Assembly (NCBI RefSeq): GCF_000514815.1
Contig: NZ_AZWQ01000021.1
Coordinates: 83,047 to 147,046 of the forward strand
Reading direction: 5' to 3'
Length of the DNA: 64,000 nt
Source: Salinispora fenicalii
GTDB taxonomy: Bacteria; Actinomycetota; Actinomycetes; Mycobacteriales; Micromonosporaceae
Under the pieces are notes generated by a model. That model did not search any database, was not told where the DNA came from, and saw nothing but the letters and a program-made list of their open reading frames with translations. Every line of letters starts with the position of its first letter. Positions within the stretch are counted from its first letter, which is position 1. A program made the translations under genes and the position numbers. This document shows positions 48,729-50,105 of this stretch, piece after piece.

Positions 48729-49979
48729 TTACCCGGTGTGGCGTAGCTCCGCGAGGAGTTGCTCCACCCGGTATCGGATCTCATCACGGATCGGGCGGAT
48801 CGCCTCGACGCCCAAGCCGGCGGGGTCGTTGAGATCCCAATTCTCGTGGCGCCCGGCTGGAAAGTCGGGAAGATCACTGCGGCATCCGATGGTGATGATG
48901 ACGTCAGCGGACGCCACGGTCGCGGGCCGCAGTAGCGTCGGCACCTGATCGGTGATGTCGATGCCGACCTCCCACATGGCGACCGCGGCGGCGGGGTCGA
49001 CCTGGTGGGCGGGGGCGGAGCCGGCGGAGCGCACCTCGACGGTGTCGCCGGCGAGCCGGCGTAGCCAACCGGCGGCCAGCTGCGAGCCGCCAGCGTCGTG
49101 GCGGCAGACAAACAGCACAGTGGGTTTGTCGGCCGCGGTGGATTCGGAGGAAGCAGCCCCGAGGTGCTCCTCGTCGATCTGGTGTGAGCTGGGCGGCGGG
49201 CTGACCGTGCAGCGGCGGCGGTCCGCTTGACGGGTCGGTGGCGCTTGGCTTCCCGTCGCTGCCGGCTCCGCGGGGACGACGACCTGGTCGGCCGCGGCGC
49301 CGGCGTCGGGGTAGAGGGCGATGAGCAGGACGACGCCGAGGGCGAGTCCGGCCAACTGGGCCAGGATGAAGCCGGGCACCGAGGTGGGGGCGATGCCAGC
49401 GAAGGTGTCGGAGAACGCCCGGCCGATAGTGACCGCGGGATTGGCGAAGGAGGTCGACGAGGTGAACCAGGAGGCGGCCCCGATGTAGGCGCCGACGGCG
49501 GCCGGGGCGACCGAGGCACGCCCGGACCGGGCGAGGGCGAAGATCAGTAGGACCAGCCCGGAGGTGGCGACAATCTCGCCGACCCAGAGGTGCCAGGCGG
49601 CCCGCTCCCGGCCGGCGAAGTCGATCACGGCGAGGTCGAACATCAGATGTGCCAACACCGCACCGGCGATCCCGCCGAGGATCTGGGCCGCTCCGTAGGC
49701 ACCCAGGGAGCCGGCGGTCAGACCGGTGCCGGCACGCCGCCCGAGGAACCAGTCGGCGGCGGAGACGACCGGGTTGAAGTGGGCCCCGGAGACCGGTCCG
49801 AAGATCAGGATCAGCGTGCCGAGGGTGAAGGCGGTGGTGATCGAGTTTGCCAGCAGCTGAAGGCCGACCTCGTCGGGGGCGAGGGTGGTGGCCATGATTC
49901 CGGAGCTGACCACGGCGGTGACCAGCAGGGCGGTGCCGGTGAACTCAGCCAGCAGGCGTCGCCAAAGTGTGCCGGTCAT
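48729..49979 (-). CDS. Aquaporin (MIP)-arsenate reductase fusion protein with altered phosphatase loop
   Basis: A 416-residue fusion. Residues 1-225 are a MIP channel with six spans and the two pore motifs NPV (69-71; Ala replaced by Val) and NPA (180-182). A linker follows, and from about 285 to 410 comes a low-molecular-weight phosphatase-like arsenate reductase domain (VLFVCRHDAGGSQLAAG, VRSAGSAP, DPAGLGVEAIRPIRDEI). Such fusions are known from Salinispora tropica and Frankia, where arsenate is reduced and the arsenite leaves by the channel. Here the P-loop reads C292-RHDAG-G298-S, so the expected Arg at C+6 is Gly and the Asn is Asp; the partner Cys near GCRSDLP is only one (C366). Activity may be reduced. 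ATG at 49979 fits the MIP start. Confidence 0.9.
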   Translation of the reverse strand: MTGTLWRRLLAEFTGTALLVTAVVSSGIMATTLAPDEVGLQLLANSITTAFTLGTLILIFGPVSGAHFNPVVSAADWFLGRRAGTGLTAGSLGAYGAAQILGGIAGAVLAHLMFDLAVIDFAGRERAAWHLWVGEIVATSGLVLLIFALARSGRASVAPAAVGAYIGAASWFTSSTSFANPAVTIGRAFSDTFAGIAPTSVPGFILAQLAGLALGVVLLIALYPDAGAAADQVVVPAEPAATGSQAPPTRQADRRRCTVSPPPSSHQIDEEHLGAASSESTAADKPTVLFVCRHDAGGSQLAAGWLRRLAGDTVEVRSAGSAPAHQVDPAAAVAMWEVGIDITDQVPTLLRPATVASADVIITIGCRSDLPDFPAGRHENWDLNDPAGLGVEAIRPIRDEIRYRVEQLLAELRHTG

Positions 49980-50105
49980 CGCTTGGTATCCCACCATCTG
50001 CGGTCGCCGAGGATCGGCGAGATGCGGTTACCAGCTGTGGTGCTGCCCAAACTACGCCCGGACCACCTGCTGGTCGAGGTGATCCGGGTGCGGTGGGTGC
50101 GGACC

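Follow-up and report, generated by a model that had tools for sequence, protein, structure and literature searches.

A conserved aquaporin-ArsC fusion with a degenerate, probably inactive ArsC half in Salinispora-like genomes

Background

Fusions between a channel and an enzyme are described as rare in an excerpt of PMC9775063, one molecule then both making and exporting its substrate. The described proteins with the same architecture as the gene reported here are the aquaglyceroporin-ArsC fusions of S. tropica and F. alni (Wu, Song and Beitz 2010), and the S. tropica fusion is called bifunctional in an excerpt of PMC6205960. Compared with these fusions, our gene has the P-loop Arg and Asn, the second redox Cys and the Tyr of the channel filter replaced. 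The closest aligned homologs of both of its halves are found in the AqpS and ArsC gene pairs of Micromonospora and other actinomycetes, which unlike our gene encode the MIP and ArsC proteins as separate neighbouring ORFs in 30 of the 32 loci scored and have the loop CVHNAGRS and a Tyr at the filter position H5. We refer to these loci as canonical.

For the enzyme half, the best PDB sequence matches are Cg_ArsC1' (3t38, 1e-19) and Cg_ArsC2 (3rh0, 1.9e-17) of C. glutamicum, both with the LMW-PTP ArsC fold. Six residues after the nucleophilic Cys (C+6) there is an Arg in 3t38 (AGRS loop), a Lys in 3rh0 (GGKS loop) and a Gly in our protein, and 3t38 has a GCGDVC pair where our protein reads GCRSDLP. 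The Arg at C+6 of the P-loop binds the oxyanion in the PTP family, and GCGDxC, as also seen in the canonical copies, is the redox Cys pair motif of the thioredoxin-coupled ArsC enzymes. CX5R is given as the active site of the thioredoxin-linked ArsC in an excerpt of PMC9454679.

For the channel half, a comparison is offered by the rice silicic-acid channel Lsi1 (NIP2-1), which in our alignment has a Ser at the same TM5 filter position; this residue, Ser207, is part of a wide, hydrophilic filter according to an excerpt of PMC8556265. In the same excerpt the TM2 and LE1 residues of Lsi1 are both Gly and its LE2 residue is Arg, whereas our protein has Thr, Ser and Val at these positions, and the overall similarity is weak.

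Results

The window analysed is a stretch of 64,000 nucleotides from Salinispora fenicalii (assembly size 5.23 Mb). It encodes a MIP-ArsC fusion on the minus strand at 48729..49997, with 422 residues when read from the upstream ATG and with five orthologs that are 88-91% identical; the start used by the first-pass annotation, Met7 at 49979 (-), is also plausible. The MIP (aquaporin) half covers residues 11-230 (49308..49967, minus strand; boundary chosen by eye) and matches the Pfam MIP model at 1.3e-19, best over residues 10-176. It is followed by a variable linker, residues 231-287 (49137..49307, minus strand), and by the LMW-PTP/ArsC-type half, residues 288-422 plus the stop codon (48729..49136, minus strand), which matches Pfam LMWPc at 1.9e-12 over residues 294-415, above the cut-off. 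The two domains thus stand in a single reading frame, MIP first. The gene lies between dapF and a malic enzyme gene in all six genomes that carry it. A scan for promoters and terminators gave no hit.

The catalytic loop of the ArsC half, from Cys298 to Gln306, is degenerate. Its codons, at 49106-49080 on the minus strand, read C R H D A G G S Q, as the first-pass annotation had it, so that against the canonical CVHNAGRS the Asn at C+3 has become Asp301 and the Arg at C+6 has become Gly304. The redox loop has been remodelled as well: GCRSDLP (residues 371-377, 48867..48887, minus strand) replaces GCGDACP, with the first Cys kept and the second gone, again in agreement with the earlier reading. 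None of these changes is private to the window, since Asp at C+3, Gly at C+6 and the absence of the second redox Cys are found in 6/6 orthologs. The CX5R P-loop and the GCGDxC pair of a thioredoxin-coupled, LMW-PTP-type ArsC are therefore both absent from the whole group. That the loop is a sequencing or assembly error has a negligible probability, as the changes are common to six genome assemblies and nothing was found in its favour; the wrong base call that the first-pass annotation named as a possible refutation is thereby ruled out.

Other parts of the active site are conserved to varying degrees, namely the Ser at C+7 in all six orthologs, the nucleophilic Cys and the DP motif in five each and the first redox Cys in three. 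The ortholog of S. cortesiana (L039, L052:10874-11281) has gone furthest of the six, with its catalytic Cys replaced by Ser and its DP motif by DS. An Arg at C+1 is seen only in the window and S. mooreana proteins, where it could partly stand in for the lost Arg. The residue that follows the first redox-Cys position is Arg in four of the orthologs, His in one and Asp in one, and it is Gly in the 28 canonical ArsCs.

By comparison, the close canonical ArsC domains have the Asn, the Arg and the second Cys in 28 of 28 cases, where the regular expression that picked the sequences admitted only Asn or Asp and Arg or Gly at the first two sites. The loop reads CVHNAGRS in 33/33 canonical loci under an expression admitting only Arg or Gly at C+6, and a looser expression found no other loop among the aquaporin-linked ArsCs. 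As most canonical loci were taken from among the 30 top matches, they represent the closest relatives and not a random sample.

The fold of the degenerate half is probably kept. In addition to the Pfam match, we predicted its structure with AF2 from six sequences; the model is modest (pLDDT 65, pTM 0.63), and its top Foldseek matches are the two ArsCs of C. glutamicum, 3rh0 (4.9e-9) and 3t38 (1.1e-8), with TM scores of ~0.6 and rmsd ~8.7. The NCBIfam ArsC cut-offs are missed by the window protein and equally by the three canonical relatives tried, and we dropped them as a test of membership.

Reduction of arsenate by the known routes appears unlikely for this half, because the Arg, the Asn and the second Cys are lost in all six orthologs and the nucleophile in one of them. 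The suggestion of the first-pass annotation that the enzyme half may be inactive can accordingly be extended, as far as its residues tell, to a degenerate and probably inactive half in six Salinispora-like genomes.

We also considered that the protein may be an arsenate reductase with a single cysteine that uses mycothiol/mycoredoxin instead of thioredoxin. A nucleophilic Cys in five of the six orthologs together with the loss of the second redox Cys in all of them is compatible with such a class, and the best Foldseek match of the modest model (pLDDT 65), 3rh0, is titled mycothiol/mycoredoxin-dependent. In the abstract of Wu 2010 it is reportedly proposed that the mycothiol/mycoredoxin pool may serve a second isoform, one whose channel is nonfunctional. 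This isoform may be the window gene's S. tropica ortholog; if so, the lack of the redox Cys and a test of the channel may already have been described there, the emphasis that we place on the channel would be weakened and the novelty of the gene would be lower. We regard a mycothiol-type reductase as improbable, though. The class, as exemplified by 3rh0, is marked by a nucleophilic Cys and, at C+6, a basic residue, which is Lys in 3rh0, where the orthologs have Gly. In addition, the Asn at C+3 has become Asp, the nucleophile of S. cortesiana is a Ser, and the ArsC half is less constrained than its canonical counterparts (see below). For the difference from 3rh0 at C+6 and for the lost nucleophile, the altered thiol chemistry that the first-pass annotation had put forward looks unlikely too.

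Among seven Salinispora-like genomes, LMWPc genes with the PTP-type loop CMGNICRS occur in 7/7, the degenerate fusion in 6/7 and a canonical fusion only in G043, which we take to be S. tropica CNB-440 (a single contig of 5,183,331 bases). In five of the six fusion-bearing genomes the PTP-type gene is the sole other LMWPc gene. A candidate for a second ArsC in the window genome proved to be of this type, with the loop CMGNICRS, and was rejected. No match to the ArsC model PF03960 was found in the window genome, and the Acr3 model matched in 0/7 Salinispora-like genomes; a PF01758 match in the window genome is a 296-aa SBF-type protein.

Orthologs of the degenerate fusion with 88-100% identity over residues 1-421 are found in 6 of 160 genomes of the genus, namely the window genome, S. 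oceanensis DSM 45547, S. mooreana DSM 45549, S. cortesiana CNY-202, S. pacifica CNR114 and G043. We also searched for the loop at the DNA level, with a degenerate pattern that encodes C-x-H-[ND]-A-[GA]-G and then requires a Ser-like codon and one for Gln. This Gly-loop pattern matched 1 of 396 genomes sampled across the phylum, i.e. the window genome, which is the sole clade member drawn in that sample, versus 136 of 396 for the canonical-loop pattern; the reversed controls gave 0 for both. Within the genus, the Asp/Gly loop pattern matched 6/160 genomes, which are five clade members and G142; S. cortesiana was missed owing to its own further changes, and the G142 match, in a long frame with no ArsC context around it, was taken to be fortuitous. 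We found no mention of the degenerate copy in the literature searched, some of it available as excerpts, and do not claim that it is absent from print.

The seventh Salinispora-like genome, G204, has no fusion. It has 44 bp where S. oceanensis has 1365 bp (L088, G204:C1:4975500-4983500), the alignment of the two genomes ending before the fusion gene and restarting after it, and its malic enzyme gene is 96% identical. The dapF/malic enzyme site is also without a match to the fusion in five other genomes of the genus, the gap between these two genes being ~13-270 bp in three of them and 1.9-2.7 kb of other sequence in two. In S. oceanensis (L035:1464-2696) and G204 (L088:4431-5678), dapF is separated from the fusion or malic enzyme gene by a long ORF, flavin monooxygenase-like in appearance; the window does not have this ORF there.

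We estimated the selective constraint on each part of the gene with an NG86-like method. Within the clade, at kappa 2, dN/dS is 0.21 (95% interval 0.12-0.34) for the MIP half, 0.43 (0.30-0.60) for the ArsC half and 0.73 (0.41-1.42) for the linker; changing kappa moves the ArsC value to 0.39 (0.27-0.53) with kappa 1 and to 0.48 (0.36-0.75) with kappa 4. For canonical pairs that have diverged to a similar degree (13 pairs, drawn from 18 loci after 12 of the 30 had been dropped), the values are 0.215 for MIP and 0.152 (0.095-0.231) for ArsC. As references in the six Salinispora-like genomes, dapF has 0.284 and maeB 0.058. A second sampling, which used 29 of 34 sequences (6 clade, 23 canonical; 5 dropped) at all divergences, gives 0.42 (0.27-0.63) for the clade ArsC versus 0.22 (0.15-0.30) for the canonical one, with intervals that just overlap, and 0.21 (0.12-0.35) versus 0.19 (0.14-0.25) for MIP. 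On the stem of the clade, from the same sequences and computed as differences of means, the estimates are 0.41 (0.24-0.63) for MIP and 0.79 (0.47-1.3) for ArsC.

The channel half is held today as tightly as the canonical channels. It has perhaps passed through a less constrained episode on the stem, where its interval of 0.24-0.63 meets that of the canonical channels (0.14-0.25). For the ArsC half the constraint is loosened without being absent, and the contrast with the canonical ArsCs is smaller in the second sampling. Since its dN/dS is below 1, the ArsC half still does something, and a weak or altered catalysis may be part of it.

These numbers bear on whether the gene is a relic on its way out, in which case arsenate detoxification would no longer be needed, the ArsC tail would be decaying and the channel would keep its old arsenite function. 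The raised dN/dS of ArsC in the clade, and more so on the stem, where the interval includes 1, points in this direction, as do the further residues lost in S. cortesiana and the absence of the gene from G204 (44 bp versus 1365 bp in S. oceanensis). We nevertheless think a relic rather doubtful, as the clade dN/dS of ArsC is below 1 (upper bound 0.53-0.75 depending on kappa), there are 0 stops inside the frame in the six genomes, and the filter residue H5 is altered in all six, which means that the old filter was not just carried over.

The channel half retains the signature of its family, with the Asn of both NPA-type motifs, Asn75 and Asn186, present in 40/40 aligned sequences. The first motif (residues 75-77, 49767..49775, minus strand) reads NPV as the first-pass annotation had pointed out, but this does not set the channel apart, because the canonical G043 copy has the identical NPV; we therefore do not count it as a peculiarity of the window channel. 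The second NPA motif (residues 186-188, 49434..49442, minus strand) is followed by Val189 at LE2.

The difference that we add to the earlier observations is at H5 in TM5. This position is Ser176 (49470..49472, minus strand) in the window protein and Ser in 6/6 orthologs, versus Tyr in 34/34 relatives outside the clade (28 canonical and six more distant). The other filter positions, Thr55, Ser183 and Val189, are identical in all 40 MIPs, and the clade filter is hence Thr55/Ser176/Ser183/Val189. Nine MIP sites, H5 among them, show a single residue throughout the clade where at least 90% of the 28 canonical MIPs share a different one. Across the order (397 genomes), a pattern for G-A-A-x-W-F-T plus the next codons, which sees only loci keeping the surrounding motif, found 57 places in 53 genomes, of which, counted by hand, 55 have Tyr and 2 have Ser; the two are the window gene and its G043 ortholog.

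A PDB search with the MIP half gave no match at the tight cut of 1e-8, and a looser search was used instead. Its HMMER alignments, which are weak, place Ser176 opposite the TM5 filter residue of AQP4 (2.6e-6) and of rice NIP2-1/Lsi1 (4.2e-6); we take these residues to be His201 and Ser207, respectively, by our own count. The filter is not that of NIP III (Lsi1-type) channels, Gly/Ser/Gly/Arg with a Thr in TM1, as only the TM5 Ser is common. By analogy, a changed solute range of the clade channel is plausible, because in Lsi1 small residues at the filter sites go with a wide, hydrophilic filter and the S207I mutant transports arsenite and not germanic acid (both from an excerpt of PMC8556265).

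The channel may have been repurposed more radically, as a wide pore for neutral hydroxylated solutes with the pseudo-reductase as a gating, sensing or anchoring tail. Boric or silicic acid from seawater, or organoarsenicals, may be such solutes. The filter has neither an aromatic residue nor an Arg (Thr/Ser/Ser/Val), and the step from channel-enzyme to channel-pseudoenzyme would have involved both halves; we consider such a channel possible, at a minority weight.

Where the fusion came from was examined with trees of the MIP halves (40 sequences) and of the ArsC halves (39 of the 40 rows, L099 being left out). The six orthologs group together in both, with a stem support of 100/100 (SH-aLRT/ultrafast bootstrap) and a stem length of 0.143 in the MIP tree and 0.379 in the ArsC tree. 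An unfused pair from the genus Micromonospora (L007) adjoins the clade in both trees with moderate support, 91/93 and 97/91. The second fusion of G043 (L042 / G043:C1:715571-716800) is canonical, with CVHNAGRS and GCGDACP, and 72% identical to the window protein; it stands far from the degenerate fusion in the same genome. Judging from these trees, a recent duplication is not the likely source of the pair of fusions in G043. A separate acquisition of the canonical copy is suggested, because it groups, weakly, with another Micromonospora-genus pair (L008; 77/76 and 76/61) and not with its own paralog. This copy and one on an Embleya plasmid are the only fused canonical loci among the 32 scored (of 33, L012 being left out of the count). 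The Embleya plasmid has MIP and ArsC in one open frame (L097:3796-4266), and for that reason the MIP-ArsC fusion may have arisen more than once.

Discussion

We lean towards the gene being a conserved channel-pseudoenzyme and not an arsenate reductase, judging from the residues and the constraint of its two halves. A possible course of events is as follows. In a Salinispora ancestor an arsenite-type MIP gene and the adjacent arsC would have become a single gene. Ahead of the divergence of the six lineages, residues that arsenate reduction is expected to require would have disappeared from the ArsC half, namely Arg and Asn in the P-loop and the second redox-loop Cys, the nucleophile being lost later in S. 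cortesiana, and the channel filter would have swapped its one bulky residue, Tyr at H5, for Ser, giving Thr/Ser/Ser/Val. The ArsC half would then no longer reduce arsenate. Because its constraint is weaker and its frames are intact, it is most simply seen as still kept as a folded tail, which may contribute to stability, anchoring or gating. The main selected function would be that of the channel, for a small neutral solute that is not necessarily arsenite.

The presence of the degenerate fusion gene should not by itself be read as a sign of arsenate resistance in the marine Salinispora. What six of the seven Salinispora-like genomes offer is a natural case of a channel-enzyme fusion with an apparently inactivated enzyme, a retained channel and one altered filter residue. 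With the canonical and the degenerate fusions both present in one genome, G043, what each half contributes, and what H5 does, can be put to a direct test.
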